Shown piece by piece: positions 12,296 through 30,762 of a DNA stretch of 34,417 nucleotides. The translations under genes were made by a program, and so were the position numbers. The first letter of the stretch is position 1. Each line of letters opens with the position of its first letter. The stretch is from IMG/VR virus record IMGVR_UViG_3300020469_000134, positions 1 through 34,417 of that record. The stretch is one strand, 5' to 3'. The notes under the pieces were generated by a model. The model was not told the DNA's origin and searched no databases. It saw nothing but the letters and a program-made list of their open reading frames with translations. Source of the stretch: a virus.

Positions 12296-14323
12296 ATGGC
12301 AGGATCAGGTTATACAAGACAGTCAGTAGCTAGTATTGTACCTACGGCAGTAGTACGAGCTGCCCCTATTAATGCAGAATATGATAAACTACGAGATGCT
12401 TTTACACAAAGTGACACAGGTTCAACAGGACACAGACACGATGGTTCTTCTGATGAAGGTTCTTATGTACCATTTATTGCAGACCTAGATAAGAAAAACC
12501 ATTTATCTGTAGATCAAACTAATAATAGATTTGGTGTTTTTGTAGAGGTAAGCTCTAGTGCAGTAGAACAATTACGTATTTCAGATGGTCTAGTTGTACC
12601 TGTCACAGATAATGATATTGACTTAGGCACAAGCTCACTAGAGTTTAAAGATGTTTTTATTGACGGTACAGCTAAGATAGATACTGTTAGTATAGGTGAT
12701 AATGATAGAACAGTTATTATTGATAATAGTTACACTGTTAGTTCAGGTGATTTAACATTTGATGTAGCTGGTGATATTATACTAGATGCTGATGGTGCTA
12801 ATGTAACTATAAAGGACGATGGTACATCAATACTTGACATAGTTAATAGCACAGGTGATGTAGAACTTACAGTAAGCACAGCAGATAAAAACTTTAAGAT
12901 TAAAGGTACAGATGCTTCTTCAGGTATTACAGCAGTTGATATTGATATGGCTGATGCTGGTACTGTAACTCTTAATCATGACTTAGTATTACCTGATAAT
13001 GGTATAATTAAACTGGGTGCTGGTACAGACTTATCACTTACTTCAGATGGAACTAATGCTGTAATAGCAGCACCTAATGGTACTCTTACAGTAGATGTTA
13101 ATGCTGACATCACTATAGATGCTGGTGGAGCAGACATCTTACTTAAGGATGGTGGTACAGATTACGGTTCATTAACTAATAATGGTAACAATCTTGTTAT
13201 CAAATCAGGTACTACTACAGCAGCATCTTTTACAGGAGCTAATGTAGACTTTGCTGGTACAGTAGATGTAACAAGTACACTTACTGCTGATGCAGGTCTT
13301 ACAGTTGCTGGAGCTACAGCACTTAATGGTGGCCTAACAATGGACACTAACAAGTTTACTGTAGCTGATACATCAGGTAATGTAGTTACAGCAGGTACTC
13401 TTACAGCTGCAGGTTTGGCTACACTTAACACTGGTTTAACTGTTAATGGTGGCAACTTTGATATGAACGGGGATGTTGATATCAGTGGTAATTTAGTTGT
13501 AAATGGAACAGTTACTACCCTTGATACAACTAATACAACTATTAAAGACTTGTTGATTGAACTTGGTACAGGTACAACAGGTACACCGGGAAATGATGCA
13601 GGTCTTGTAATAGAACGTGGTGACTCAGCTAATGCATTTATTGGATATGACGAATCAGCAGATAAATTTATTGTAGGTACAGGTACTTTTACAGGAGCTA
13701 GTACAGGTAACTTAAGCATTACTAAAGGTGTTATACAAGCTGGTGTAGACTTTAGCTCTAGCTCTATAACAGATGGTACTACAACAATATCCGGTTTTAA
13801 AGATGAAGATGATTTTGCTTCAGACAGTGCTACACACTTAGCAACCCAACAATCTATTAAAGCATATGTAGCTACTATTGCAGGTCAGTCGAATAATGTG
13901 GTTGGTCTTACATCTACTGCTGCTGAGTTAAACTTATTAGATGGTAGTGCAGTTACTCCTACAACCTTGACATTAGCAGATGATGATGGTATAGTCGTAT
14001 TAGATTTATCAGCTACTACAACTAAAAATATTAGGGCTGATAACCTAGCTACTTATTTTACAAGTAAAGCTAATGTAGCTGGTTCAACTACTACTTTTAC
14101 TAATAAAACATTTGATCAAGATGCTACAGGTAATAGTATAACTAATCTTGCTAATGCAAGTATAAAATCTGGTGCAGCTATTGATGCAACTAAAATTGCT
14201 GATGGTAGTGTAACAAGCACTGAGTTTCAATACATTGGAGGATTAACCTCTGATGCACAAACACAACTTAATGCTAAAGCAACAACAGGTAAAGCTATTG
14301 CTATGGCTATAGTCTTTGGATAG
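12296..14323 (+). CDS. Tail fibre protein
   Basis: A 675-aa, Thr/Asp/Gly-rich protein with the low-complexity repeats of a trimeric beta-structured fibre. The N-terminus (about 1-60, with NAEYDKLRDAF and a GHRHDGSSDEGSYV stretch) is the likely virion-attachment part. A DNDIDLGTSSLEFKDVFIDG block at about 101-120 is a common fibre repeat. At about 395-480 comes VNGTVTTLDTTNTTIKD, then LIELGTGT, DAGLVIERGD and IGYDESADKFIVGT, a set I associate with marine and cyanophage fibres. The C-terminus ends in TTGKAIAMAIVFG. It lacks the propeller modules of the three genes further downstream. Its likely role is a structural fibre or collar to which those receptor-binding proteins attach; that is inference. 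Confidence 0.7.
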   Translation: MAGSGYTRQSVASIVPTAVVRAAPINAEYDKLRDAFTQSDTGSTGHRHDGSSDEGSYVPFIADLDKKNHLSVDQTNNRFGVFVEVSSSAVEQLRISDGLVVPVTDNDIDLGTSSLEFKDVFIDGTAKIDTVSIGDNDRTVIIDNSYTVSSGDLTFDVAGDIILDADGANVTIKDDGTSILDIVNSTGDVELTVSTADKNFKIKGTDASSGITAVDIDMADAGTVTLNHDLVLPDNGIIKLGAGTDLSLTSDGTNAVIAAPNGTLTVDVNADITIDAGGADILLKDGGTDYGSLTNNGNNLVIKSGTTTAASFTGANVDFAGTVDVTSTLTADAGLTVAGATALNGGLTMDTNKFTVADTSGNVVTAGTLTAAGLATLNTGLTVNGGNFDMNGDVDISGNLVVNGTVTTLDTTNTTIKDLLIELGTGTTGTPGNDAGLVIERGDSANAFIGYDESADKFIVGTGTFTGASTGNLSITKGVIQAGVDFSSSSITDGTTTISGFKDEDDFASDSATHLATQQSIKAYVATIAGQSNNVVGLTSTAAELNLLDGSAVTPTTLTLADDDGIVVLDLSATTTKNIRADNLATYFTSKANVAGSTTTFTNKTFDQDATGNSITNLANASIKSGAAIDATKIADGSVTSTEFQYIGGLTSDAQTQLNAKATTGKAIAMAIVFG

Positions 14324-14339
14324 TAAAGAAGGATAAACA

Positions 14340-14753
14340 ATGGCACATCCAAATATAGTAAATGTATCTAGTATATTTGCCCAATCTATAGGGTTTAATT
14401 TATCAGCTACAGCAACATCAACATTGTTTACTGTTGGTGATGATAGAGTATTAAAAGTAAACAATATAATAGTAACTAATGTAGACGGTACTAATGCAGC
14501 AGATGTAGATTTATTTGTTACAAAAGCACAAGTTGATACAGAAGACGATGCACTCTTTGGAGCTTTTACAACAAACATTGATATAACTGGCAGTTTTTAT
14601 ATAGCTAAAACAATCAGTGTTCCTGCTGATACTACACTAGTTCTTTTAAATTCACCTCTTTATTTATGTGAAGGTGATATACTAAAAGGTGGTGCTAGTG
14701 CTGCAAGTGACTTAGATTTACTTGTCTCTTATGAAGTAATTAATGACGCATAG
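14340..14753 (+). CDS. Small beta-rich tail-associated protein
   Basis: A 137-aa protein of unknown function, predicted to be almost all beta (LFTVGDDRVLKVNNIIVTNV, SFYIAKTISVPADTTLVLLN, LYLCEGDILKGGASAASDLD). It is the size and pattern of a small jelly-roll or beta-sandwich protein found between fibre genes in marine phages, perhaps a capping or linking piece of the tail tip. It starts after AAGGA with normal spacing and ends 9 nt before the first receptor-binding gene. No catalytic or metal-binding motif is seen. Confidence 0.55.
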   Translation: MAHPNIVNVSSIFAQSIGFNLSATATSTLFTVGDDRVLKVNNIIVTNVDGTNAADVDLFVTKAQVDTEDDALFGAFTTNIDITGSFYIAKTISVPADTTLVLLNSPLYLCEGDILKGGASAASDLDLLVSYEVINDA

Positions 14754-14762
14754 GATTACTTA

Positions 14763-17348
14763 ATGAAGTACATTGGTAATATCCAATCACAAGCTAACGC
14801 AGAAGTATTTGCTGTAGCATCAGGTGCATTGCCTGATGGAAAGCCTGTCATAATTAACTCTGATGGGACTGTGAGTGTTGCTGCTGAGACTTCTGTAAGT
14901 CAAGCGGTAGGATCAGTTGTTGGTTTTACAAGCTCTGCCCTTGGGTATACTGGCTCTACATTTGATAGTTCAAATAACAAGGTTGTTATAGCATACCAAG
15001 ATGCTGGGAACTCTTACTATGGAACTGCTGTTGTCGGGACAGTGTCGGGAACTTCAATTAGCTACGGAACCCCTGTAGTCTTTGAGCAAGGGCAATCTAA
15101 TTATATTTCAGCCACATTTGACAGTTCAAATAACAAGGTTGTTATAGCATACCAAGATGCTTCCAACTCAAATTATGGAACCTCTATCGTTGGAACTGTA
15201 AGTGGGACAAGTATAAGCTTTGGAACGGCTGTAGTTTTTGCGTCTCAAAATTCTACAGAGATTTCAACAGCTTTTGATAGTAACTCTAATAAGGTTGTTG
15301 TTGCTTATAATAAAGGTAATCCAAATCGGGGAAAAGCGAGGGTTGGAACTGTATCTGGAACAGGTATTAGCTTTGGTACTGAAGCAGAGTTTGAAGCTGC
15401 TCAGATAGGTAGTAGTTCAACCACATTTGATAGCTCAAACAACAAAGTTGTAGTTGGTTACTTTGATAAGGGAAACTCTAATCACGGTACAGCCGTAGTT
15501 GGAACAGTCTCTGGCACGGATATAAGTTTTGGAACCCCTGTGGTTTTTGAGGCAGCTTCAGTAGTTGATACGGGTGGGTATTCAGTATCAGTTACTTTTG
15601 ATAGCAATTCTAACAAAGTAGTTATTGCATATCGGGATGGTGGAAACTCAGGACATGGTACGGCTATAGTTGGCACTGTTTCATCTACGGCAATCAGCTT
15701 TGGAACTGCTGTAGTCTTTGAGGCGGCTGGAATCTATAATCCTAACATTACTTTTGATAGCAATGCTAATAAAGTTGTTATAGCTTACAGAGATACAGGA
15801 AACGGAGATAGCCTTGGAACCGCTATCGTTGGAACCGTAAGTAATACAAGCATTAGCTTTGGAACTGCGGTGACTATTAATAACGTCAATACTCCTGATG
15901 TTACTACAACATTTGATAGCACTTTAAACAAAGTAGTTATTGCATATCGGAATGGTAGTGCTGGGGATGGGGACTCTGTTGTATTTCAAAACGCAAGTCT
16001 TGACACAAACCTCACCTCAGAAAACTTCTTAGGCTTTAGCACGGGTTTCGCTTCGCCTGCCGTGGCAGGATCAGCCACAACTTTTGAGACAGGTAAAACA
16101 CAATACACTGACATTGCTTATATTGGAAGCAACAAGGTAGTGATTGCGTATCAACAACACTACAACACAAGTGGCAGTCAAACTAAGGATGGGTACTGCA
16201 TTGTAGGCACAATCTCAGGCACAAGCATTAGCTTTGGTTCAGCAACTGCGTTTAGTACAGCTAGTGCTGAATATGTTCACGTTGCTAATGTTGAGAATGA
16301 TAAAGTTGTTGTGTTCTTTCGAGATGGTCAAAATTCTAATTATGCTACGTCAAGAGTCGGCACTGTAAGTGGCACAGGTATTAGCTTTGGTACAGCAGTT
16401 GTAGCTCACTCTGGAAACTCTGCCTACACAAATGTAGAAGGCATAGGCAACGATAAGGTTGTAGGTGTTTATAGGGATGATGGGGATTCTGACAAAGGAA
16501 AGGCCATAGTTGGTACTGTTTCGGGTACGGACATTTCTTTTGGCTCTGATGTTGAGTTTAATACATCAGGCGATGGCTATGACTTAGTTTCTATAGGCAG
16601 TGGCAAAGTAGTCATTGCATACAAAGACGTTGGCAATTCAGGCCACGGCACAGCAATAGTTGGTACTGTTTCAGGCACATCAATCTCCTTTGGATCAGAA
16701 GCCGTTTATGAGGCTGCTACGACAGGATTTTTAGATACAGGTATTGCTTATGTCGGTAGTGATAAAGTTGTTATAAGCTACCAAGATGAGGGTAATAGTG
16801 ACAACGGAACTGCCATAGTTGGTACTGTCTCAGGTACGTCTATCTCATTTGGAACTGCCGCTGTTTTTGAAGCTAATGCAACACAAGTGACAAACTCTAC
16901 TTCTATTGGTGGAGACAAGGTAGTTATTGTCTACAGCCAAGGTAATGATACTGGAGCAGGAAATGGTAAGTATGCCGTTGGAACTGTATCAGGAACAGGT
17001 ATTAGTTTTGATACCGCAGTTACTTTTAATGGTGCTGCTTCATGGGACATGGCTGTAGTTTCACCAGAAGATAATAAAGTAGCTATTTCTTGGGGCCAAC
17101 ACAGCAACACATCAGGAGACAGGCTTGGTCAGGCTCTTGTGACTACCATTGAAGACAGAGGCTCTCTAGCCGATGGAAAGGTAGCAACTATTCAGGTTGG
17201 TGGGGCAATAAGTACGATACAAGGTGGCTTAACAGCAGGCCAACAGTATTTCGTACAGACAGATGGAACGATTGGCACAACAGCAGCCACCCCATCAGTA
17301 ATTGCAGGGACAGCAGTATCTGCCACAGACTTAATCGTGAAAGGATAA
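14763..17348 (+). CDS. Receptor-binding protein 1: two seven-bladed beta-propellers
   Basis: An 861-aa modular protein, probably exposed at the tail tip and responsible for host recognition. Domains: an N-terminal docking module (about 1-45) with SGALPDGKP and SDGTVSV; propeller one (about 60-412) with seven repeats of about 52 residues of the form FDSNxNKVVIAYxD then GTAIVGTVSGTSISFGT; a linker NLTSENFLGFS at about 416-425; propeller two (about 435-795), again seven repeats but beginning IGSNKVV or similar instead of FDSNSNKVV; and a C-terminal module (about 800-861, GLTAGQQYFVQTDGTIGTT and ending SATDLIVKG). The last blade of propeller one lacks the usual GTVSG half and ends SVVFQN, as expected where a propeller closes. 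Codon use is more GC-rich than in flanking genes. Receptor binding is inference; the architecture is seen directly. Confidence 0.7.
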   Translation: MKYIGNIQSQANAEVFAVASGALPDGKPVIINSDGTVSVAAETSVSQAVGSVVGFTSSALGYTGSTFDSSNNKVVIAYQDAGNSYYGTAVVGTVSGTSISYGTPVVFEQGQSNYISATFDSSNNKVVIAYQDASNSNYGTSIVGTVSGTSISFGTAVVFASQNSTEISTAFDSNSNKVVVAYNKGNPNRGKARVGTVSGTGISFGTEAEFEAAQIGSSSTTFDSSNNKVVVGYFDKGNSNHGTAVVGTVSGTDISFGTPVVFEAASVVDTGGYSVSVTFDSNSNKVVIAYRDGGNSGHGTAIVGTVSSTAISFGTAVVFEAAGIYNPNITFDSNANKVVIAYRDTGNGDSLGTAIVGTVSNTSISFGTAVTINNVNTPDVTTTFDSTLNKVVIAYRNGSAGDGDSVVFQNASLDTNLTSENFLGFSTGFASPAVAGSATTFETGKTQYTDIAYIGSNKVVIAYQQHYNTSGSQTKDGYCIVGTISGTSISFGSATAFSTASAEYVHVANVENDKVVVFFRDGQNSNYATSRVGTVSGTGISFGTAVVAHSGNSAYTNVEGIGNDKVVGVYRDDGDSDKGKAIVGTVSGTDISFGSDVEFNTSGDGYDLVSIGSGKVVIAYKDVGNSGHGTAIVGTVSGTSISFGSEAVYEAATTGFLDTGIAYVGSDKVVISYQDEGNSDNGTAIVGTVSGTSISFGTAAVFEANATQVTNSTSIGGDKVVIVYSQGNDTGAGNGKYAVGTVSGTGISFDTAVTFNGAASWDMAVVSPEDNKVAISWGQHSNTSGDRLGQALVTTIEDRGSLADGKVATIQVGGAISTIQGGLTAGQQYFVQTDGTIGTTAATPSVIAGTAVSATDLIVKG
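14967..15005 (+). repeat. 39-nt direct repeat, copy 1 (blade 1)
   Basis: These 39 bases recur exactly at 15123-15161. The distance is 156 nt, which is 52 codons and exactly one propeller blade, so blades 1 and 2 look like a recent in-frame duplication or have been homogenised by gene conversion. Confidence 0.85.
15123..15161 (+). repeat. 39-nt direct repeat, copy 2 (blade 2)
   Basis: Exact second copy of 14967-15005, lying in the next blade of the same propeller. The bases after the repeat diverge at once (GGGAAC against TCCAAC). Confidence 0.85.
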
Positions 17349-17351
17349 ACG

Positions 17352-17609
17352 ATGAAAACGATAGTCGAAACATCAACAGGACTCAGTAAGTATTTACTTG
17401 CGGATAACGTAGCAATAGTTAGCAATTCTGACATGATACATGTGGGTGATCCTGTTCAATTTTCTATAGGCGATTTAAATTCAGGCACTGTTACAATCAC
17501 AGAGAACGTAACTAATGCTCCTAGTGATTGGACAGGTAACAAGTATAAGTTTGATGGCACTAATTGGACAGCAAATCCAAACTGGGTTGATCCAGACGCA
17601 GAGGAATAA
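17352..17609 (+). CDS. Small tail-cassette protein of unknown function
   Basis: An 85-aa acidic protein placed between receptor-binding genes 1 and 2, starting 3 nt after the first and ending 2 nt before the second. The N-terminus (TIVETSTGLSKYLLADNVAI) and a WTGNKYKFDGTNWTANP segment near the end resemble short proteins that accompany fibre and receptor genes in marine phages. The DGTxWxxNP pattern suggests a small beta-hairpin module. It could be an assembly chaperone or an accessory tip subunit; nothing in the sequence decides. It has an AAGGA site 7 nt before the ATG. Confidence 0.6.
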   Translation: MKTIVETSTGLSKYLLADNVAIVSNSDMIHVGDPVQFSIGDLNSGTVTITENVTNAPSDWTGNKYKFDGTNWTANPNWVDPDAEE

Positions 17610-17611
17610 AG

Positions 17612-19240
17612 ATGCGTACCATTGGCAGAGATTTCGGCGACACGGCTAGAAAAGTTTACGCTGTTGCAAGCGGAGCTTTGGGTAATGGCAAGGCTGTAGT
17701 TGTTAAGTCTGATGGGACTGTGAGTGTTGTTGGAACTGACACAGTTTCTGCTAACTATAGTTATGGAAGCACCACAGCTACGAGTGGGGTGGCATCTCAA
17801 AATATTCATATTTCTGCTGATCCATTTAATAGCAATAGGTGGGCTTACATATGGATGGACGATTCTAGTAATAATGAAATACGAATTAGAATTATCACTC
17901 GCAGTGGAAGCTCTCTAACTCAAAGCTCAAACAGTGACGTAGACACTGATGGCAATGCCAATCGTCCTTATGCGGTCTGGGATACTGTTACACAAAACAA
18001 ACTATTATTATTTTATAACGAAGGTTCTGCAAACAAAGGAGCTTGTAAGGTTTGCACATTTACAGGTTCTGCTGGAAGTGAAAGTTTTTCTTACGGGTCA
18101 CAATTAATATATACAAACCATCAACCCAATGCAGGAAGTACGGGAGCTAACACTCCAACTCCACCTGTGGCTATAGGCACAACGGGAAGCTATCTTCATA
18201 CTTGGCGGTTAGCTACGGGCAGCAATACAGGATACACCTACTCTCAGATACTTAGAGTAAATGGAACCACGGTTACAAAAAGCGATAACGGTGGTAGTGA
18301 TGGTAATATTTTAATCAGTGCAAATCTTTATAGCGCAGGGCAAGTAGCTATTAATCCAACAGATGCCACTAAAGGGTTTATGACCGTTGTAAATGCAAGT
18401 GAAAAGTGGGTTATGTATCCATTAACATTATCTGGCACAGGTGATGCAATGGCTGTTTCTGTTGGTTCAGAGCAAGTGGTTACTCCAAATATACGGACTG
18501 ACGGGAACGGCTACGCAAACAACGAAGGCTTTCAAAGAATACAATACATTGATGGCGAAAGGTTTTTAATTTTTGCTAGAGGTGGGGATTCGCCACACAA
18601 CAAAAAAATAGTTAGTATAATGGTAAAGTATGTAGGCACTACATACACGGGTGGAGGTACAAGCAGTTCAAGTCCAACTTACCTACCACAAAACATATCG
18701 ACTACTAGCAACAACCCATCTGCGTTTAATGTGAGCAATAATATTGTAACTGATCCCACAACATTTGTTACTATCGCTACATTTGAAGGCATGAACCCTA
18801 AACAAATTCTTGTTTCAGTAGGGAATGTTAACACAGGCACAGGAGCTATAACCTATGCTAATCAGGTGAGAATAGATGATAATGTTTCTAATACGGCGGC
18901 TTATTATATTAACTGTCCTCAACAAAGTGGCGCAGATCAAGCAGTTCTTACTGGTTGGGCTATTTCAGGTCAAATTCCTTCTGTCCGTTTAATGTTGTCT
19001 GGGTCTAGTGTTTTAAACCTCACCTCTGAAAACTTCATAGGCATAACTCCAAGCGCATATCCGACAGGTGCAGGGGCAGAGATACAGACCAAAGGTGCTA
19101 TTAACGAAGAGCAATCGGGCCTAACCGCTGGTCAAAGCTATTTCGTGCAAGCGGATGGGACTCTAGGAACAACGGCTGGTGATCCAAGTGTATTCGCTGG
19201 CACGGCTGTATCTGCCACTAAGATAATCGTGAAAGGCTGA
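17612..19240 (+). CDS. Receptor-binding protein 2: single propeller between conserved end modules
   Basis: A 542-aa paralogue of the genes on either side. The N-terminal module (about 1-38, SGALGNGKAVVVKSDGTVSV) and the C-terminal module (about 468-542, NLTSENFIGI, then QSGLTAGQSYFVQADGTLGT, ending SATKIIVKG) match the other two. The middle (about 46-465) is unlike theirs in sequence but still divides into about seven WD-like segments with strands such as WAYIWMDD, NKLLLFYNEG, KGFMTVVNAS and ERFLIFARGG. I read it as one divergent seven-bladed propeller; the count is less certain than in the neighbours. This is the simplest member of the family and probably close to the ancestral layout. It starts behind GAGGA. 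Its role in receptor choice is inferred. Confidence 0.65.
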   Translation: MRTIGRDFGDTARKVYAVASGALGNGKAVVVKSDGTVSVVGTDTVSANYSYGSTTATSGVASQNIHISADPFNSNRWAYIWMDDSSNNEIRIRIITRSGSSLTQSSNSDVDTDGNANRPYAVWDTVTQNKLLLFYNEGSANKGACKVCTFTGSAGSESFSYGSQLIYTNHQPNAGSTGANTPTPPVAIGTTGSYLHTWRLATGSNTGYTYSQILRVNGTTVTKSDNGGSDGNILISANLYSAGQVAINPTDATKGFMTVVNASEKWVMYPLTLSGTGDAMAVSVGSEQVVTPNIRTDGNGYANNEGFQRIQYIDGERFLIFARGGDSPHNKKIVSIMVKYVGTTYTGGGTSSSSPTYLPQNISTTSNNPSAFNVSNNIVTDPTTFVTIATFEGMNPKQILVSVGNVNTGTGAITYANQVRIDDNVSNTAAYYINCPQQSGADQAVLTGWAISGQIPSVRLMLSGSSVLNLTSENFIGITPSAYPTGAGAEIQTKGAINEEQSGLTAGQSYFVQADGTLGTTAGDPSVFAGTAVSATKIIVKG

Positions 19241-19242
19241 CC

Positions 19243-21825
19243 ATGAACTTCATTCCACCACAGGACGAAACACGGTTAAGGGCGGCGGCTAGTGGGGTTC
19301 TGCCTAATGGTAAGCCAGTGGTTGTTAATGCAGATGGGACTGTGAGTGTTCCTGCCTCTTCGGGAGGGCCAGCAGGAGGTGGAACGCCTGTTCAATTCTC
19401 TGGTGGAAATAGCTCCAGCATGGACGTTGTGTATGACTCAAACGCAGATAGAGTGGTTGTTGCTTACAGAGATGATGCGGATAGTGGAAAAGGAAAGGCC
19501 ATTGTCGGAACCGTAAGCGGCAGTAGTATTTCATTTGGAACAGCCGTCGAGTTTTTAGGCTCCTCAATGTACACTCCTTCTTTGGTTTTCGATTCCTCTG
19601 CTAATAAGGTTATATTATTTTATGATAGTGGAAATGTAGGAAAAGCTAGAGTAGGAACGGTAAGCGGTACGTCTATTTCGTTTGGAACAGAAGCCCAATT
19701 TTCTAGTGACGCATCTTTAATGAGTGCATCTTATGATGCAAATGCCAATAAAACAGTTGTAGCTTTTCGCAATTACTCTTCTGGAAATCAAGGCAAAGCA
19801 GTAGTTGCTACAGTTTCTGGCACGAACATAAGTTTTGGAAGTGCGGCAACTTTTGAAAGTGGTACATTACATACTTCTTATAAACCCATTGCCACTGCGT
19901 ATGACCCAGATTCTCAAAAAATAATTATAGCTTTTTCTTTAAATAACGACAATGCTAGTCTACGATACGGAAAAGTTAGAATGGCAACTATAAGTGGAAC
20001 CAGTGTAAGTTTTGGAACTGCTGTGACATTCAATGATAACACTGACAGTAATGGTGTAAGTGTTGTTTACGACACAAATGTAAACAGAGTTGTGGTTGGT
20101 TACATTAACAATGGAAACTCTGGGTATCCAACTTCTATAGTTGGAACAGTTTCTGGCACAGATATAAGTTTTGGAACTGCTGTTGTTGTATTAAGTGCCG
20201 CCGCTGGTGACACTACTTTGGCTTTTGATACAACTCTCAACAAAACTAGTTATTCATATTCTGCGGATAGTCAAAAACTATTTACAACATTAGGAACGGT
20301 AAGTGGTACAAGCATATCTTTTAGTGCCGCTGTGACAACATCAACAGACAACTCAACTGTTTTAATGAGTACGTTTGACCCCGACACTGGAAACACTGTT
20401 ATTGTTAGAAAAACTTCAACAGGGGGCAGCAGGGGGCAAGTAGTAATATATACAAACTCTGGGCCAATTAGCCTCACCGCTGAAAACTACATTGGCATGT
20501 CGGGTGGGGCGGTGAGCTTCACAGGGTCTGCTGCAACTTTAGGTTCAGAGGCTGTTTTTGAAAGTGCGACTGTAAGTTATACAAATGCTGCTTTCGACAG
20601 TAATTCAAATAAAGTAGTTGTTGCCTACAATGATGGCGGTAATTCCTCTTCTGGCACAGCCGTTGTCGGAACAGTAAGTGGGTCATCAATTACTTTTGGA
20701 ACTCCTGCCGTATTTAACTCTGGTTCTAATACTGAATGGATTTCTGTGGCTTTTGACAGTAATTCCAATAAAATTGTAATTGCCTATATGGACGCAGGTA
20801 ATAGTAGTTACGGCACAGCTATTGTAGGAACAGTAAGCAACACAAGTATTAGTTTTGGCAGTGAGGTCGTTTTTAATAGCGGCAGTTCAACCCGTATGGA
20901 TATGTGTTTTGACAGTAATTCCAATAAAATTGTGATAGCGTTTGCTGACGTTCCTGCTGGCGAAGACGGCACGGCAATTGTTGGAACAGTATCGGGAACA
21001 TCAATATCTTTTGGAAATAAGCAAGCTTTTCATAGTGAGCAAATCGAACATACTGCGATAACTTTTGATAGCAATTCCAATAAAGTTGTAATAGCTTACT
21101 CTGCTTTTGATGGTGGAGATAAGATGAGCGCAGTTGTAGGCACAGTATCTGGCACAAGTATTAGCTTTGGAAGCACTGCTTCAATCCTATCAGGCTCTTA
21201 TGGTATTTATACCGGTGCTACATTTGATAGTAACAGCAACAAAGTGGTAATTACTTTTAGGCATCAAGGAAGTTCTAGTAATGGCACGGCTGTAGTCGGT
21301 ACGGTAAGTGGAACAAATATTACTTTCGGAAGTCTTGTCGTGTTTAACGCTGCCGTTACAAATTACCCTGCACCGCAATTCGATAGCAACTCTAATATGG
21401 TAGTTGTTTCGTACTTAAACTCTGACACAAGTGTAGGTAGTTTAGTAGCAGGTACAGTAAGTGGAACGTCTATAACTTTTGGTAGCGCAACTGCTTTTAA
21501 CACAGGAACAACTAATTACATCAAAAACACTTTTGATAGTAATAGTAATAAAGTGGTCACTGTTTATAGAGATGATGGTAATTCAAACTATGGAACGGCT
21601 GTCGTGTTTAAACCTGATACCAGAATTACAACAAGAGGCCAAGTCGCATCAGGCTCCAGCGCAAGCGTAGACATCATTGGCACAGTCAGTGAGAACCAAA
21701 CTGGCCTAACAGCAGGGCAATCATACTTCGTTCAAACAGATGGGACGATAGGTTTAACAGCAGACGATCCTAGTGTCTTTGCAGGAACTGCGATTAGTGC
21801 AACAGAATTGCTGGTAAAGGCGTAA
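19243..21825 (+). CDS. Receptor-binding protein 3: two seven-bladed beta-propellers
   Basis: An 860-aa paralogue with the same plan as the first: N-terminal module (about 1-38, SGVLPNGKPVVVNADGTVSV), propeller one (about 48-405) with seven diverged repeats (YDSNADRVV, FDSSANKVI, YDANANKTV, YDPDSQKII, YDTNVNRVV, FDTTLNKTS, FDPDTGNTV), linker ISLTAENYIGM at about 409-419, propeller two (about 425-790) with seven much more uniform FDSNSNKVV-type repeats, and the C-terminal module (about 800-860, GLTAGQSYFVQTDGTIGLT, ending SATELLVKA). The contrast between an old, diverged first propeller and a young, uniform second one suggests that the second was added or re-expanded later. The gene starts 2 nt after the previous stop with only a weak AAGG site, implying coupling. 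Confidence 0.7.
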   Translation: MNFIPPQDETRLRAAASGVLPNGKPVVVNADGTVSVPASSGGPAGGGTPVQFSGGNSSSMDVVYDSNADRVVVAYRDDADSGKGKAIVGTVSGSSISFGTAVEFLGSSMYTPSLVFDSSANKVILFYDSGNVGKARVGTVSGTSISFGTEAQFSSDASLMSASYDANANKTVVAFRNYSSGNQGKAVVATVSGTNISFGSAATFESGTLHTSYKPIATAYDPDSQKIIIAFSLNNDNASLRYGKVRMATISGTSVSFGTAVTFNDNTDSNGVSVVYDTNVNRVVVGYINNGNSGYPTSIVGTVSGTDISFGTAVVVLSAAAGDTTLAFDTTLNKTSYSYSADSQKLFTTLGTVSGTSISFSAAVTTSTDNSTVLMSTFDPDTGNTVIVRKTSTGGSRGQVVIYTNSGPISLTAENYIGMSGGAVSFTGSAATLGSEAVFESATVSYTNAAFDSNSNKVVVAYNDGGNSSSGTAVVGTVSGSSITFGTPAVFNSGSNTEWISVAFDSNSNKIVIAYMDAGNSSYGTAIVGTVSNTSISFGSEVVFNSGSSTRMDMCFDSNSNKIVIAFADVPAGEDGTAIVGTVSGTSISFGNKQAFHSEQIEHTAITFDSNSNKVVIAYSAFDGGDKMSAVVGTVSGTSISFGSTASILSGSYGIYTGATFDSNSNKVVITFRHQGSSSNGTAVVGTVSGTNITFGSLVVFNAAVTNYPAPQFDSNSNMVVVSYLNSDTSVGSLVAGTVSGTSITFGSATAFNTGTTNYIKNTFDSNSNKVVTVYRDDGNSNYGTAVVFKPDTRITTRGQVASGSSASVDIIGTVSENQTGLTAGQSYFVQTDGTIGLTADDPSVFAGTAISATELLVKA
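20751..20777 (+). repeat. 27-nt direct repeat, copy 1
   Basis: Recurs exactly at 20907-20933, 156 nt away, again one blade. It covers the FDSNSNKIV strand codons of propeller two in receptor-binding protein 3. Confidence 0.8.
20907..20933 (+). repeat. 27-nt direct repeat, copy 2
   Basis: Exact second copy of 20751-20777 in the following blade. The blade period is the same 156 nt seen in receptor-binding protein 1. Confidence 0.8.
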
Positions 21826-21828
21826 TCT

Positions 21829-22083
21829 ATGTCTAATATTAACTTGACACCAGAAGAGTTAGAAGATATGTTAGATCGTGCAGCTAGACGTGGAGCTAAA
21901 CATGCTCTTAGTTCTATAGGTTTATTAGATAATGATGCCCATAAAGACATAACAGAAATGCGTAGCTTAATAGAGGCATGGCGTGATACACGTAAAGCTT
22001 TCTGGAATACAGCAGTAAAAGTATCTACAGTCGCAGTGCTTACATTTATAGCTGGTGCAGTGTGGATGACATTTAATAAATAG
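21829..22083 (+). CDS. Small single-span membrane protein (DUF6127-like, holin candidate)
   Basis: An 84-aa protein with a charged N-terminal half (residues 8-60, including AARRGAKHALSSIGLLDND and ITEMRSLIEAWRDTRKAFW) and one predicted membrane span at about 63-80 (VSTVAVLTFIAGAVWMTF). The helical pattern and the WRDxRKxxW stretch resemble the DUF6127 family of small phage and bacterial membrane proteins; I give this from memory. Size, topology and position before lysis-type and ejection genes make it a holin or pinholin candidate, but some relatives may be structural. It begins 3 nt after the receptor-binding stop without a clear ribosome site, so translation is probably coupled. Confidence 0.55.
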   Translation: MSNINLTPEELEDMLDRAARRGAKHALSSIGLLDNDAHKDITEMRSLIEAWRDTRKAFWNTAVKVSTVAVLTFIAGAVWMTFNK

Positions 22084-22090
22084 GTGATCT

Positions 22091-22552
22091 ATGATTGATC
22101 CTATAACTGCAATAGCTGGTGCTACAGCTGCATTTAATGCACTAAAGAAAGGCATACAGGTAGGCAAAGACTTACAAGACATGGGTAGTCAACTGTCACA
22201 ATGGGCAGGCGCAATGTCAGACATAGACTTTGTAGACAAACGTAATCAAAAACCTAGTGTGTTTAAAATATTAGGTGGTGGTGTTGAGTCAGAGGCCATG
22301 CAAATATTCGCAGCTAAGAAAAAACGTGACTCAATGAGAGCCGAACTTAAAGATTTTATTTCTGTAGTATATGGACCTTCACACTGGGAAGAACTATTAA
22401 AGATAGAAGCAGAAATAAGAGTGCAGAAAAAAGAAAACGAATACAGGAGACTAGAGTTAAAACAAGCTATAATAGAATGGAGTGCAGGTATTACTTTATT
22501 TTTTATATTTATAGGTAGTTTGTTTGGCTTAGTATGGATAGGAACTAGATAA
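22091..22552 (+). CDS. C-terminally membrane-anchored protein, unknown function
   Basis: A 153-aa protein with an Ala/Gly-rich N-terminus (DPITAIAGATAAFNALKKG), a charged helical middle (about 78-130, with KKKRDSMRAELKDF and IRVQKKENEYRRLELKQA, probably coiled coil) and a single membrane span at the C-terminus (about 134-151, ITLFFIFIGSLFGLVWI). The topology resembles a tail-anchored or spanin-like component, but there is no lipobox and no Rz1 partner is seen. It sits between the small membrane protein and the first internal protein and overlaps the latter's start (TAATG). It may act in lysis or in forming the DNA-ejection channel; the sequence does not decide. Confidence 0.5.
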   Translation: MIDPITAIAGATAAFNALKKGIQVGKDLQDMGSQLSQWAGAMSDIDFVDKRNQKPSVFKILGGGVESEAMQIFAAKKKRDSMRAELKDFISVVYGPSHWEELLKIEAEIRVQKKENEYRRLELKQAIIEWSAGITLFFIFIGSLFGLVWIGTR

Positions 22553-24906
22553 TGGTTGAGTTTAATTCACAACAAACATATACAATACTTAATAAATTAC
22601 ATGGGTACTCTGGTTCACCTCAATCAGATGAGATGGAGGCATTTATCATGTCTTCTCCTGCAGCCTCTGCTACTCTTCGTAAGTTTGATAGACACATAAA
22701 GAAAACTACATTTAAAAAATCTGGTGGTCTTATTAAAGGTTATAGTACAGGGGGTCTTGAAGAAGATAAGCCGGGATTTAATACTGGTGCTGGTCGTACT
22801 TTTATTGGTGAAGAAGGAATACAAGAAGGTCTTAATTTTAATGAAGAAGATATTATCAAAGCTGGTGTAGGTCTTGCAGATGAACAAAAAGGCATGGACA
22901 TTAACAAAGATGGTAAAGTAACTTCTGCAGATGCACTTGCCTATGCAAAAATGGATACTGCTAAAGATAAAGCAACTGAAGGTGCTGGAGTCTTAGCTAT
23001 GAAAGCTATGACAGACCCTTCAGCACTTGTAGAAAAACAAAAAGTTGATACTATAGATGTTGATGCAACTGGAACTAACTTAACAGAAACTACTTATAAT
23101 GCAGATGGTACTGTCAAAGAATATGGTGTAGGCGCAAGAAAGTCTATGACAGAAGATGAAGAAATATCTGCATCTTCAGCTAAAGCAGGTACAGCTACAG
23201 CAGGTAAAGCTTCAGCTTCTAGTACAGCTGCCCCTGAAGAAACAACTTATAATGAAGATGGTACTGTTAAAGAGCAGGGCTTTGATGTAACTACTATTGC
23301 AGATGAAGATATTGCAAAAACAAAGGCAGACATTACAGCACAGAATTTATTACTTAAAGACACTAAAGGACAGACAGGTGAAGGCTTTGAAGATGGACTT
23401 AAAACAAGGTCTATTATGGATGCTGCTACAGCAAAGGTTGACCCAGAAACAGGAAAAATTGTTACTGAGGTAAGTGACATTGATGCAGCAACAGGCACAT
23501 CTGTAGATGTAGATGCACCAGATGACAGGAAGATAAAAGAAACTACATATAATCCTGATGGTAGTGTTAAAGAACTTGGTGAAACAGTTGATCTAGACTC
23601 AATTAAAGGTAGAGCTGACAAAGCTGGTGAATATACAGAGGCAATACAAGCAGAGACAGCTAGCCCATCTGAAAAAACTTCTGTCGCATATCAAATGGGT
23701 CAGCTTACTGATAATTTTGATGCTAAGAACCCACCTCCTTGGGCTGCAGGTGCACTACGTGGTGTTATGGCACAAATGTCAGCAAGAGGTCTTAGTGCTT
23801 CCTCAATGACAGGACAAGCTCTAGTACAAGCTGCACTTGAAAGTGCATTACCTATTGCTTCTGCTGATGCAGCTACACAAGCAAAATTTGAAAGTCAGAA
23901 CTTGTCAAACAAACAAGCTCGTGCTATGCTTGCAGCAGAACAACGTGCACAGTTTTTGAACTTAGAGTTTACTCAAGACTTCCAAGCTCGTGTAACTAAT
24001 GCAGCTAAAGTATCTGAGGTAGCTAATCTAAACTTTACAGCAGAGCAACAAATTGCACTTGAAAATTCTCGTGCTGCTAATACAATGGAGCTAGCTAATT
24101 TAACTAATGAACAGGCTGTTGTTATGGGAGAGTTAGCTCAGATTGCTAACTTAGAATCAACTAATCTAAGTAATGCACAGGCTGCTGCAAAACAAAATGC
24201 TGAAGCATTTTTAGATTTAGATATGAAAGAGTTTGATAGTACTCAAGCAAACTCTGTTATAAAACATCAGACTGCTGTTCAAAGTATTTTAACAGATGCA
24301 GCACAAGAAAATGCTACAGAACAGTTTAATGCTACCAGTGAGAACCAAGGAAAGCAGTTCATTACAAACTTAAAAACTCAAGTTGCTATGGCAAATACTG
24401 CACAAGAAAATGCTATTAAGCAGACTAATGCACAGCTAGCAACTCAAGCATCTATAGCATCTGCAGCTGAAGAAACAAGAGTTGCAATAGCAAATGCAGC
24501 AGAAAAAAATGCTGTGAAAAAATATAATATGAATGTAAGTGAAGCTAGAGAAACTGCTAATGCAGCAAATGCTGTAGTTATAGCTCAAGCTAATGCAGTG
24601 TGGAGACAAAATGCAGAAACTCTAGATACAGCTGCACAAAATGATGCTAATAAAACCTATGCTCAAGAAATTACTAATCTAAATAATAAAGCTATAGATG
24701 AGATATGGCAAAGAGAACGAGACATAATGGATCAAGTTAATGAAAACAAAGAGTCTAGTAAAGACAGGGCTTTAAATGTTTTACTAGGTGATCAAGAAGT
24801 AGCAATGTTAGATTCAAAATTAGAGTTTGAAGATAATAAAAATGCAACTAGTTTTTTAACTGAGTTAGTATTTGATACTGTTACAACAGCAGCAACAGGT
24901 GCATAA
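22552..24906 (+). CDS. Large coiled-coil virion/ejection protein with Ca-binding-type loop
   Basis: A 784-aa protein, probably internal to the virion. Features in order: two GGL motifs in a linker (58-61 and 67-69); an EF-hand or dockerin-type loop D116-x-N118-x-D120-GKVT-x-x-D127; three copies of TTYNxDGTVKExG at about 180-192, 231-243 and 331-343; a conserved block at about 372-440 (PPPWAAGALRGVM, then ARGLSASSMTGQALVQAALE) that I associate with marine phage proteins; and a long C-terminal Ala/Asn/Gln-rich helical region (about 440-760) that should form an extended coiled coil. No enzyme motif is seen. Size, helicity and position just before a lysozyme and other large proteins fit a podovirus ejection protein. 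Translation is coupled to the previous gene. Confidence 0.6.
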   Translation: MVEFNSQQTYTILNKLHGYSGSPQSDEMEAFIMSSPAASATLRKFDRHIKKTTFKKSGGLIKGYSTGGLEEDKPGFNTGAGRTFIGEEGIQEGLNFNEEDIIKAGVGLADEQKGMDINKDGKVTSADALAYAKMDTAKDKATEGAGVLAMKAMTDPSALVEKQKVDTIDVDATGTNLTETTYNADGTVKEYGVGARKSMTEDEEISASSAKAGTATAGKASASSTAAPEETTYNEDGTVKEQGFDVTTIADEDIAKTKADITAQNLLLKDTKGQTGEGFEDGLKTRSIMDAATAKVDPETGKIVTEVSDIDAATGTSVDVDAPDDRKIKETTYNPDGSVKELGETVDLDSIKGRADKAGEYTEAIQAETASPSEKTSVAYQMGQLTDNFDAKNPPPWAAGALRGVMAQMSARGLSASSMTGQALVQAALESALPIASADAATQAKFESQNLSNKQARAMLAAEQRAQFLNLEFTQDFQARVTNAAKVSEVANLNFTAEQQIALENSRAANTMELANLTNEQAVVMGELAQIANLESTNLSNAQAAAKQNAEAFLDLDMKEFDSTQANSVIKHQTAVQSILTDAAQENATEQFNATSENQGKQFITNLKTQVAMANTAQENAIKQTNAQLATQASIASAAEETRVAIANAAEKNAVKKYNMNVSEARETANAANAVVIAQANAVWRQNAETLDTAAQNDANKTYAQEITNLNNKAIDEIWQRERDIMDQVNENKESSKDRALNVLLGDQEVAMLDSKLEFEDNKNATSFLTELVFDTVTTAATGA

Positions 24907-27240: not shown

Positions 27241-30200
27241 GTGGAATATTTAAATCATGTACAAGATAAATACTTTGCGGAGCTGGTTAATCAACCGGGT
27301 TTTAAAGAAGACTTAGAAACTTTTTTTACTGGTGGTAGATACAACCATACTAAAGAAGAGTTAGAAAATCGTGGTGCAAAAGGTTTAGCAAATGACTTTG
27401 CTGAACACATGAGATTTCAATCTCAAAATGAAGTTAGTGCATTGTATGATTTTAACTATGTTAAAAACAGAGACATGCCTGAGACAGGGAAGCTAGCCTT
27501 TGGTCGCCTTATGCAAGCTTATGATATAAGTGAAGGTGGTGGTGATGGCACTTGGAGTTCTACTGCTGAAGGTGCTTGGGATTATGCAAGAGCTATAGGT
27601 TCTGCCCCTACAACTATAGCTAGTGTAGCTACGTTAGGTCTTGGACTTGGCCCAAAGATTATGGCACAAGCTGGACTTAAAGCTACACAGATGAGTTTAC
27701 GTAATACTATTTCTAATATGTTAGCTAAAGAAATGTCTAAAGAAGCTATCAAAAAAGAACTTAAAAAGAAATATACTACCCAAGGTTTAAAGGCTGCAGC
27801 TGGAACATTTGCTCTTGAAGCAGGGGTAGGTGCATACCAAGGTGCAGCTGTAGGTGAAACAAAAGAAAGACTAGCTGGACCTGAAGGTTATATCGAAGGT
27901 TTTGAATATACAAATGCTGATCTAGTTTCAGATGCAGCTATAGCAGGAACAGTGGGAACTACTATAGGTACATTAGGAAGTATCTTTGATACTAAATCCT
28001 ATAATAGAACTATTGATCTTATAACTGATGTTCAAGAAAGAGGTATGAAAGCAAAGCTTGAAGGTAGGCGAGCTGCTATAGATAAACTAACTGAGCTTGG
28101 TTCAGACCCAGATCAAGTTAGACAGTTGGCAGACCCAATCGTAGAGCTAGTCAATATACTTAGGAAGAGAGACCTTGGAACTAAAGCTCCACTTGATGCA
28201 GACTTAGTTGCAGAAGGTGACAAGATACTTAACGACATGATGAATCCTAGTGTTGATAAGTTTTTAACTCCTAGTTTACATATTGATACTGTTAGAGGTA
28301 TTACTGCAGCAGCAGCTGATCTTAAAGATGTACTTGAGATTAGACCTAATGAAAGAATCTCTTCTGCTATAATGAGAGCACTGCAACCTCAAGGTAAAAA
28401 TCAACCTCCCCTTATAACTACAATGGATTTAGACCTTATGGCTAAGAAGTATGGGTTAAGTCCTCAACAACTTTCTTACACTTGGTTAGCTGATTTATCT
28501 AAAGCCGGTGCAACACTTGGTGAAGCTGGCAGACTATCTCAACTAATGAAAAATGAACTTGGTGATCTTAATCTTTTAGCAAGAGCTGGTGTATCTACTA
28601 TTGGTGAAGCAGAGGCAGAAGGAATTATGTCTATTGCAAGACAAGGTAAACATTCTAAGCATGCTGGTGGTAAAGAGTGGTGGCTTACTGGAGCTGCAAG
28701 AACACTTGATAGAAGTCGTATTGCATTCATGACATCTCAGCTTGGTACAACAGCAGCTAACACAATAACAACTGGTGGCTTTCTTGCTATAGATATGTCA
28801 GATCAACTGTGGAAGAATGTATTTAGAAGTACAGTAGGTGTAGCAGCACCAGACGGCACTGTAAAGAGGGGTTGGATAAAAGGTAATCTATCTACCCTAA
28901 AAGGCTTAACCTTTAATAGAGGAGAAGCTGATGCCTTTGCAATGCTAATGTCAGATGAACTACCTGAAACATACAAGACACTTTTCTTAGACAGCATGAG
29001 AGCTAGTGATGTTGCTGGTGGTAATAGCTATATTGCTAGGGCATCTAGAATGGCTAACTTTTTAAATACTACAACAGACTCTTTGTATAAACAAGGAGCT
29101 ATGTATGGTTCTGTTGATAGGCAATTACGAGAGAATTTCTTTACCACAGGTGAAGGTTTTAAGGATTTAGCTGGCTTCCTTGCGGAAGGAAAGAGTCTTA
29201 CTGAACTACCCCAAGGAGTAATGGCTAAAGCTGTAGACGATGCTAAACGATTTACGTTTCAAAAGGACTACAGAAAAGATACTTCTATCTTTGGTAAAAC
29301 TGCTTCTGCTATACAAAGAATACACTACAAGTTTCCATTTGTAGTTTCGTCCTTGCTTGATATGCCTTTTCCAAGATACATGGCAAATCATTTAGAAACT
29401 ATGTATGACTATCTACCCATATTACCTCACATAACTGCTAGTGGTGGTGTTGGTAAAGTATTTAAAAAAGCTGGTGTAATTGATGACATGTTTAAAACTG
29501 GAGCTGATAGACATGCAAGAGGTTTAACAGGAGCAATGCTAGTTATGGGTGGTGTTGCTGTTGCTGCACAAAAAGAAGGTAAGATAGACTACGACAAGAT
29601 AGAAACAGAAACTAAATCTCGTGCTGATCTTAGACGTGTGCTAGGTCCATGGGCTTCTTCTGCTTTAATAGGTGACATGATCTATAGAAAAACTTCTGGC
29701 TTACCGTTAGGTCCAGACTTTTTTGAAAGTATTAAAGAAGTAATAGGTGACACAGGTTTAGTAAGTGACTTTGGTCAATTAAATGTAGACTTACTAAAAG
29801 ACATACAAGAGTCAGCTACTAAATTAGAAATGACAGAAGGTTTAGCTAAACAACTTGGTGATATAACTGCTGTGTTTAGTTATCCAACTACATCTGCCAG
29901 AGATTTACAAGGTCAAATAAACCCCGAAGCTGCTGGTAATCCTTTTACTGAAGATGCTTTAAGAGGTGTAGGAGAACCTTATAAAAACAAGAGTTTCCTT
30001 GAGGATATTGTACATAAAAATACTTATATTAATCAGGCTATAAGATTCTTACCTGATTACATGGGTAGTATGAATGTGTTAGATAATAACTCTAACTTAG
30101 ATGGTGAGCTTGACTTAAAGATATATGATTTCTTTAGCCCTTACCCAAGAGGTAGTTATAATCCAATTAACAGACAGTTTGGAATAGCCACTGAGCCACC

Positions 30201-30762
30201 AGCTACAGGATTACAAGCAGAGATAACACAGCTTGGACTAGTACCCTATAAACTAACTAGAAAAAATCCTAATCCTACTGTACATTACTTAGCTGATTTC
30301 TTAGCAGCTCGTGGTAATCCTTATGTAACTGATCCTCTCGACAAACTACCTATGTGGGAAAAGTGGGAGATATACAAATCAATTCCTTTAGAGGACAACA
30401 GGTATATGGGAAAAAGTTATATGGAATTGATTGATAATAAAGACAAGGCTTCTGCCTTAGAACAATTTATTGGTCAAGAATATAACGATGCTAATGAAGC
30501 AGCTAAAAATCTTCTCAATAAAATGGCAGAAACACCCGGTGGTAAACGTCAGTTTACAGCTTATATAAATAATACTTATATAATAAAACAAAAAGAATTA
30601 CAAGCAGTCAATAGATCATACGATGATGTATTAAAGACATACCCCAAGTTGTTCCAAGGCTATACTTCAGCTGAAAAATATCTTCAGGATGCAGATGACC
30701 TTGGAACTTATGTTGATAGAAAGCAACACATAATGAAACAGGCTCAGTCTTTACTAGACTAA
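27241..30762 (+). CDS. Very large internal virion (ejection) protein
   Basis: An 1173-aa protein, the last and largest of the plus-strand block, most likely ejected with the DNA to form part of the channel across the cell envelope. It begins with GTG, supported by GGAGG about 7 nt upstream. Two Gly/Ala-rich hydrophobic regions, at about 120-145 (APTTIASVATLGLGLGPKIM) and 762-777 (GAMLVMGGVAVAAQ), could enter membranes. The middle holds long helical segments, and the C-terminal 400 residues are richer in Tyr, Pro and Asn. I see no transglycosylase, lysozyme or polymerase motif. The terminal codons overlap the end of the minus-strand operon (stops share CTAA). Function is inferred from size, order and composition. 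Confidence 0.6.
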   Translation: MEYLNHVQDKYFAELVNQPGFKEDLETFFTGGRYNHTKEELENRGAKGLANDFAEHMRFQSQNEVSALYDFNYVKNRDMPETGKLAFGRLMQAYDISEGGGDGTWSSTAEGAWDYARAIGSAPTTIASVATLGLGLGPKIMAQAGLKATQMSLRNTISNMLAKEMSKEAIKKELKKKYTTQGLKAAAGTFALEAGVGAYQGAAVGETKERLAGPEGYIEGFEYTNADLVSDAAIAGTVGTTIGTLGSIFDTKSYNRTIDLITDVQERGMKAKLEGRRAAIDKLTELGSDPDQVRQLADPIVELVNILRKRDLGTKAPLDADLVAEGDKILNDMMNPSVDKFLTPSLHIDTVRGITAAAADLKDVLEIRPNERISSAIMRALQPQGKNQPPLITTMDLDLMAKKYGLSPQQLSYTWLADLSKAGATLGEAGRLSQLMKNELGDLNLLARAGVSTIGEAEAEGIMSIARQGKHSKHAGGKEWWLTGAARTLDRSRIAFMTSQLGTTAANTITTGGFLAIDMSDQLWKNVFRSTVGVAAPDGTVKRGWIKGNLSTLKGLTFNRGEADAFAMLMSDELPETYKTLFLDSMRASDVAGGNSYIARASRMANFLNTTTDSLYKQGAMYGSVDRQLRENFFTTGEGFKDLAGFLAEGKSLTELPQGVMAKAVDDAKRFTFQKDYRKDTSIFGKTASAIQRIHYKFPFVVSSLLDMPFPRYMANHLETMYDYLPILPHITASGGVGKVFKKAGVIDDMFKTGADRHARGLTGAMLVMGGVAVAAQKEGKIDYDKIETETKSRADLRRVLGPWASSALIGDMIYRKTSGLPLGPDFFESIKEVIGDTGLVSDFGQLNVDLLKDIQESATKLEMTEGLAKQLGDITAVFSYPTTSARDLQGQINPEAAGNPFTEDALRGVGEPYKNKSFLEDIVHKNTYINQAIRFLPDYMGSMNVLDNNSNLDGELDLKIYDFFSPYPRGSYNPINRQFGIATEPPATGLQAEITQLGLVPYKLTRKNPNPTVHYLADFLAARGNPYVTDPLDKLPMWEKWEIYKSIPLEDNRYMGKSYMELIDNKDKASALEQFIGQEYNDANEAAKNLLNKMAETPGGKRQFTAYINNTYIIKQKELQAVNRSYDDVLKTYPKLFQGYTSAEKYLQDADDLGTYVDRKQHIMKQAQSLLD

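Follow-up and report, generated by a model that had tools for sequence, protein, structure and literature searches.

Whole seven-bladed β-propellers appear to be exchanged between slot-bound scaffolds in a putative receptor-binding cassette of an HMO-2011-type marine phage

Results

Three Paralogous Genes Lie in a Probable Tail-Fibre Locus

The window, i.e., the whole stretch of 34,417 nucleotides of viral DNA analysed here, carries a cassette of three paralogous genes, whose open reading frames were verified at the coordinates given in the initial annotation. The first gene (P1, slot 1; 14763..17348) encodes a scaffold of 861 amino acids (aa) with two predicted seven-bladed propellers, the second (P2, slot 2; 17612..19240, 542 aa) a scaffold with a single divergent propeller, and the third (P3, slot 3; 19243..21825, 860 aa) again a scaffold with two predicted seven-bladed propellers. 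All coordinates of the cassette, its parts and the two genes upstream of it refer to the plus (+) strand. As noted previously, the same N-terminal (ASGxLPxGKPVxVNxDGTVSV) and C-terminal (GLTAGQxYFVQxDGTxG and, at the end, SATxLIVKG) modules were found in all three proteins, P3 ending in LLVKA. Between slots 1 and 2 lies an 85-aa gene (17352..17609), probably coding for a fibre assembly chaperone, to judge from one annotated relative: a Lentibacter phage ICBM2 protein with 37% identity over 81 aa is annotated as a tail assembly chaperone, its RefSeq copy being named tail fibre protein instead.

Upstream of the cassette, the first ~130 aa of a 675-aa fibre gene (12296..14323) are common to two genes annotated as tail fibre, CRP-9 gp47 (58% identity) and HMO-2011 gp43 (43% identity). 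The interval between this gene and the cassette is occupied by a gene for a 137-aa protein (14340..14753), placed by position, for which no family match was obtained; a 120-aa ORF holds the equivalent position in contig L116. The genes downstream of the cassette likewise have counterparts in CRP-9/HMO-2011-type phages. Directly after P3, positions 21829-22083 encode a DUF6127 protein of 84 aa with one likely membrane helix, which is 77% identical to CRP-9 gp41. Further on, a 784-aa protein (22552-24906) contains repeated TTYNxDGTVKE motifs, its later part being kept in CRP-9 and HMO-2011, and a 1173-aa protein (27241-30762) had no PHROG or Pfam match.

The nearest isolates by coat (66–69% identity) and portal (73–83%) were Roseobacter phages such as CRP-9, CRP-13 and CRP-345 and the SAR116 phage HMO-2011. 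Homologous coat and portal proteins and the order of the morphogenesis genes identify the window phage, by sequence comparison, as HMO-2011-type. In HMO-2011 itself, the place of the cassette holds about 14 small genes, most of them annotated as tail fibre, and this synteny with the HMO-2011 and CRP-9 fibre region supports the host-recognition locus proposed initially. In two relatives, the cassette module forms the C-terminus of a protein with a tail-fibre N-terminus (phrog_3484, 4e-122, in L023; phrog_7032, 8e-9, in L103).

P1 and P3 Are Predicted to Carry Two Seven-Bladed Propellers Each

The initial annotation had counted seven repeats, a linker and seven further repeats in both P1 and P3, and had read them as closed rings. 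A blade HMM built from P3, with a model length of 51 positions, counted 14 blades in each protein, in two sets of seven: at site I (P1, 14886..16007; P3, 19357..20469) and at site II (P1, 16038..17168; P3, 20500..21642), the two P3 propellers being placed by the AlphaFold2 model as well. Two blades had weak scores, P3 blade 7 (i-Evalue 0.022) and, less so, P1 blade 14 (1.6e-4), both being in register. In most seven-blade sets, the last blade stopped at around model position 40–45 of 51 and lacked its outer strand, and a strand stands before blade 1, as expected for velcro closure with an N-terminal strand. The AlphaFold2 model of P3, made with 34 sequences, showed two propeller domains with four strands per blade, mostly at pLDDT 85–97, and its Foldseek matches were tandem double-propeller proteins, with Elp2 among the best solved matches. 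The HMM counts, the P3 model and the Foldseek matches agree in pointing to 7+7 blades in closed rings for both P1 and P3.

Sequence searches of the PDB gave chance-like matches only. Membership of the WD40 family was dismissed, as WD40 proteins appeared as fold neighbours only and no WD40 family reached its cut-off. A Pfam match of P1 to Cyclophil_like2 (42.7 bits, above the cut-off) was judged spurious because it covers the B segment plus a blade and so spans the border between scaffold and propeller.

P2 matched the blade HMM poorly. Its insert (17735..19015, placed by the inner strands in the model) is longer and divergent, and a search with P2 as query retrieved no relatives among viral contigs; its propeller was therefore tested by profile comparison and modelling. 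The profile comparison tied the first ~120–170 residues to the propeller family, and a model made with aligned single-propeller proteins (pTM 0.67, mean pLDDT 66) placed seven inner strands at aa 76, 130, 193, 254, 316, 385 and 443, a spacing of 54–69 residues. Foldseek neighbours of this model were propellers with 6, 7 or 8 blades. One propeller in P2 is thus well supported by model and profiles, and seven is probably its blade number, with moderate support from the model. The 2/1/2 arrangement proposed at the outset stands overall, the count of seven holding firmly for P1 and P3 and less so for P2.

Among the inserts of relatives (non-redundant at 80% identity), exactly seven blades were scored in 172/185, a count far beyond chance; ten of the 13 inserts that scored otherwise keep the usual length of 363–383 aa. 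The loops between strands d-a and b-c, which form one (top) face of the ring, varied most, and the most conserved positions were structural strands and bottom loops, recurring in every blade. This pattern bears on whether the propellers might be depolymerases that cut glycans rather than bind them, as would be conceivable given that the propeller proteins of phages include endosialidases, which sit on a stem (PMC4901313), and that sialidases appear among the Foldseek neighbours of P2. However, conservation peaks at those recurrent elements and not at unique active-site residues, and no glycan-cutting enzyme family was matched in Pfam, PHROG or NCBIfam, so that we regard enzymatic fibres as improbable and a binding role as the better reading of the propellers.

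The Framing Modules Are Pieces of One Split Scaffold

The three genes delimit the same scaffold segments. In P1, segment A (14763..14885; N-module HMM, aa 1-41) is followed by the site-I propeller, segment B (NLTSENFLGF; 16008..16037), the site-II propeller and segment C (17169..17345; C-module HMM, aa 803-861). In P3, segments A (19243..19356) and C (21643..21819), both placed by module HMM, and B (SLTAENYIGM; 20470..20499) are arranged likewise, sites I and II being occupied in both proteins. Segments A (ASG..DGTVSV) and B (NLTSENYIG) flank the propeller of P2 and of most relatives, in which B is continuous with C; P2 segment B spans 19016..19045 and segment C 19058..19237 (C-module HMM, aa 483-542), site II being empty.

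Two site-II-only proteins (L018:7434-8921 and L022:1590-3125) show A and B contiguous and a propeller between B and C. Further, a natural empty scaffold of 117 aa (L116:5950-6303), with complete A-B-C, occupies slot 2, a normal slot-3 gene following immediately, and two more empty scaffolds (L123:5604-5933 and L081:2-304) are both cut by contig ends. The empty and the site-II-only proteins indicate that the N-module, the C-module and what had been called a linker are pieces of one scaffold of ~100 aa. The framing modules and linker described initially are therefore present, not as separate units but as segments of a single domain interrupted by insertions. Comparison of these proteins places propellers at site I, at site II, at both or, rarely, at two other places in the scaffold loops. 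In L001:5920-8478 and L085:2922-5471, a seven-bladed propeller lies ahead of the core of A, which makes a fourth insertion place, and a further loop, within C, accommodates an insert of another kind, with five repeats of the AFNxDGTKMYVxG type, in L015:3754-5994 and L067:1620-3872.

Comparison among related phage genomes, as suggested by the initial annotation, found cassettes of this kind in many of them. Scans of viral contigs yielded 24 loci with P3 relatives, and the B-C part of the scaffold gave 462 confirmed relatives, 80 of which (viral contigs) were kept; all loci of relatives are metagenomic contigs. The 85-aa gene was found in 124/165 fetched loci. The lengths of 221 complete proteins cluster at ~483 and ~853 aa, plus one protein of 117 aa; lengths are quantised at 117, ~483 and ~853 aa, fitting 0, 1 or 2 propellers. 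By slot, the 48 distinct complete trios carried 1,1,1 propellers in 26 cases, 1,1,2 in 14, 2,1,2 in 6 (window included) and 2,1,1 in 1, with one unusual trio, so that the five propellers of the window are the largest total seen.

Some loci depart from this plan. A single 2350-aa protein (L105:173-7225), from a contig that was binned into a Euryarchaeota MAG, contains four complete scaffold-plus-propeller modules in tandem after a fibre-like N-terminus. L082:1-6071 has four module genes, not three, and its chaperone-type gene looks duplicated. In L063:5495-7630 and L097:9876-11969, an extra scaffold-propeller protein with a fibre-type N-terminus directly follows slot 3.

The scaffold was modelled with low confidence in P2 and P3 (mostly pLDDT 30–60) and is presumably a small β-rich domain; only about 15 residues precede it in the slot proteins. 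The nearest Pfam family of the empty scaffolds is Phage_cement_2 (PF09956, former DUF2190), a likeness that is suggestive only: each of the three matched it along almost the whole sequence (printed E values, 8e-4 to 0.014), and another cement family ranked behind it. On this basis, the scaffold might be a cement-type head protein decorating the capsid, with propellers holding the phage near host cells or particles. Nevertheless, every match stayed below the curated gathering score of 24 bits (16.2 and 20.1 bits for empty scaffolds and 22.8, the best, for an L105 segment), and unrelated NCBIfam models reached E 0.006 on the same scaffold protein. Moreover, the scaffold is not in a head gene context: the cassette lies in the fibre locus and not beside the coat gene, the chaperone-like gene is embedded in it, and elsewhere the module is fused to fibre N-termini. 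Relatives of the L105 genome gave no match in a search with the cement profile. We consider capsid decoration unlikely, and a place of the scaffold in tail fibres is favoured.

Propellers, Unlike Scaffolds, Are Scattered Across Slots

Slots were set by gene order around the 85-aa gene, independently of the sequence of the slot proteins; L082/L086 pairs were kept out of the trees on account of an apparent duplication of the chaperone gene and of ambiguous slots. In the tree of the A+B+C scaffold, 159 proteins required 2 slot changes, the minimum possible, compared with 65–88 in shuffles. In contrast, the site-I propeller tree required 65 slot changes for 157 proteins, compared with 64–83 (mean 74.3) in shuffles. 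The strongest result of this study is the exchange of propellers: by these sequence trees, scaffolds sort perfectly by slot, and propellers are almost random for slot.

In line with this, 35 cross-slot or cross-site pairs with at least 70% identity over 90% of the propeller were found, one of them, L082/L086, with ambiguous slots. The best cross-slot swaps showed 97–100% DNA identity over about 1.1 kb, between flanks of 66–81%, and one propeller recurred in up to three contigs (L110, L119 and L137). The site-II propeller of P3 shares 87% identity with propellers that other phages carry at site I of slots 1 and 2, a likeness indicating that movement between sites occurs too. Homologous recombination would be the route of exchange.

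Such mobility could be apparent only, if poor tree resolution or chimeric metagenome assembly mixed the slots: every locus is a metagenomic contig, a single repeated-blade family can blur trees, and FastTree alone was used for the propeller tree. However, near-identical 1.1-kb propellers occur in different slots of many independent contigs, up to three per propeller, their cross-slot flanks are too different at the DNA level to mislead an assembler easily, and the same contigs give a scaffold tree in which slots are sorted perfectly. An artefact of this kind thus seems very improbable, and genuine exchange of propellers is preferred. The combinatorial character proposed initially for the cassette is hence strengthened at the evolutionary level, since propellers move between slots. 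Within loci, 0/219 pairs reached 80% identity, compared with only about 0.6 expected, so nothing is claimed on a rule against similar propellers within one genome.

Exchange Tracts Probably End in Conserved Junction Motifs

In seven swaps, the identical block begins in or beside VVxNxDGTVSV and finishes in or beside TNLTSENYIG. The corresponding motif A, GATGGGACTGTGAGTGTT, occurs three times in the window, once per gene (14862..14879 in P1, 17711..17728 in P2 and 19333..19350 in P3), with 18/18 identical positions; 0.04 occurrences would be expected even with up to three mismatches. Motif B also occurs three times in the window, within segment B of P1 and of P2 and, with 2 mismatches, of P3. 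We read these motifs as probable borders at which exchange tracts end by short homology.

Junction codons are conserved beyond the protein level, even at synonymous positions. Codon usage at the junctions was strongly biased (Ser AGT in 180/186, Thr ACC in 177/187 and Asn AAC in 181/187), relative synonymous entropy at the best junction positions was 0.07–0.3 compared with 0.7–0.95 in most control codons, and cross-slot third-base identity reached about 0.7–0.95 at several junction codons compared with about 0.3–0.5 at most others. Part of this conservation could reflect another DNA- or RNA-level constraint. It is conceivable, though we hold it doubtful, that ACTGTNAGTGTT and AACCTCACCTCNGARAAC, which bracket site I, are maintained as DNA anchors through which seven-bladed propellers from a common pool keep being redistributed over the three slots of this cassette in marine phages. 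If so, such exchange would be a recombination-driven counterpart of retroelement-driven receptor variation. As to a diversity-generating retroelement, a reverse transcriptase was absent from the scanned subset of proteins of the window, which is a 34-kb fragment.

Discussion

Taken together, it is likely that the cassette encodes exchangeable receptor-binding fibre tips, with propellers plugged into slot-bound scaffolds. The three paralogues would be subunits of the tail-fibre tip in a short-tailed marine phage of HMO-2011 type, each composed of a small β-rich scaffold (segments A, B and C) with one or two complete seven-bladed propellers in the loops between. The scaffold, tied to gene position, would presumably serve assembly with the help of the chaperone-like protein, and the propellers would turn their variable top-face loops towards the surface of the host, with glycans as the presumed target. 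Swaps of complete propellers, from slot to slot, from one insertion site to another and from phage to phage, would generate diversity, with recombination ending in the two short junction motifs conserved on either side of site I.

Receptor binding is the best explanation of the fibre locus, the chaperone-like gene, the fibre N-termini and the top-face variability taken together, and we infer it for the propellers; all five may be displayed on one virion. In the HMO-2011-type group, a published comparison linked fibre variation to host adaptation (PMC6918029). Whole-propeller exchange would then be a ready-made way to alter which bacteria are recognised. In an abundant marine phage group, sequence comparison tells apart an anchor that is bound to its slot and a recognition domain that moves freely: each slot is identified by its scaffold, variation resides in the plug, and the position of each junction is known with a precision of a few codons. 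How the host range of uncultured ocean phages evolves becomes testable from sequence, by setting propeller against host in whatever slot. The scaffold is also a naturally proven split scaffold, taking 370-residue insertions at several loops.

Cultured phages offer partial parallels. Puniceispirillum phage HMO-2011 and Roseobacter phage CRP-9 share the genomic place, from the amidase/fibre genes to the conserved downstream genes; neither a propeller nor a convincing scaffold match was found in the HMO-2011 tail fibre cluster or its CRP-9 counterpart, and CRP-9 has other proteins at this place. Lentibacter phage vB_LenP_ICBM2 encodes, in gp48-gp49, a related 515-aa propeller protein beside a homologue of the 85-aa gene, but differs in its identity of about 30%, its weak scaffold match and its fibre-like genes alternating with several chaperone genes.

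Propeller-containing receptor-binding proteins and fibre mosaicism are already known; in the open-licence literature, we found no description of propellers that are plugged into loops of a single scaffold and change places among paralogous slots. Staphylococcus phage phi11 gp45, PRD1 P2 and PhiKZ gp131C are likewise (putative) receptor-binding proteins that contain a β-propeller, which is five-bladed in the phi11 and PRD1 proteins and seven-bladed in PhiKZ gp131C (PMC4901313). Each of these chains holds a single propeller, as a domain in linear sequence, whereas the window cassette has one or two in split-scaffold loops, in three paralogues, and apparently mobile between them. Mosaicism of receptor-binding proteins, in which tail fibre or spike fragments were recently shuffled between phages, as in the cassette, conserves the N-terminus and exchanges the C-terminus (PMC10684548). 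In the cassette, by contrast, an internal domain appears to be exchanged between conserved ends, among slots and two insertion sites.
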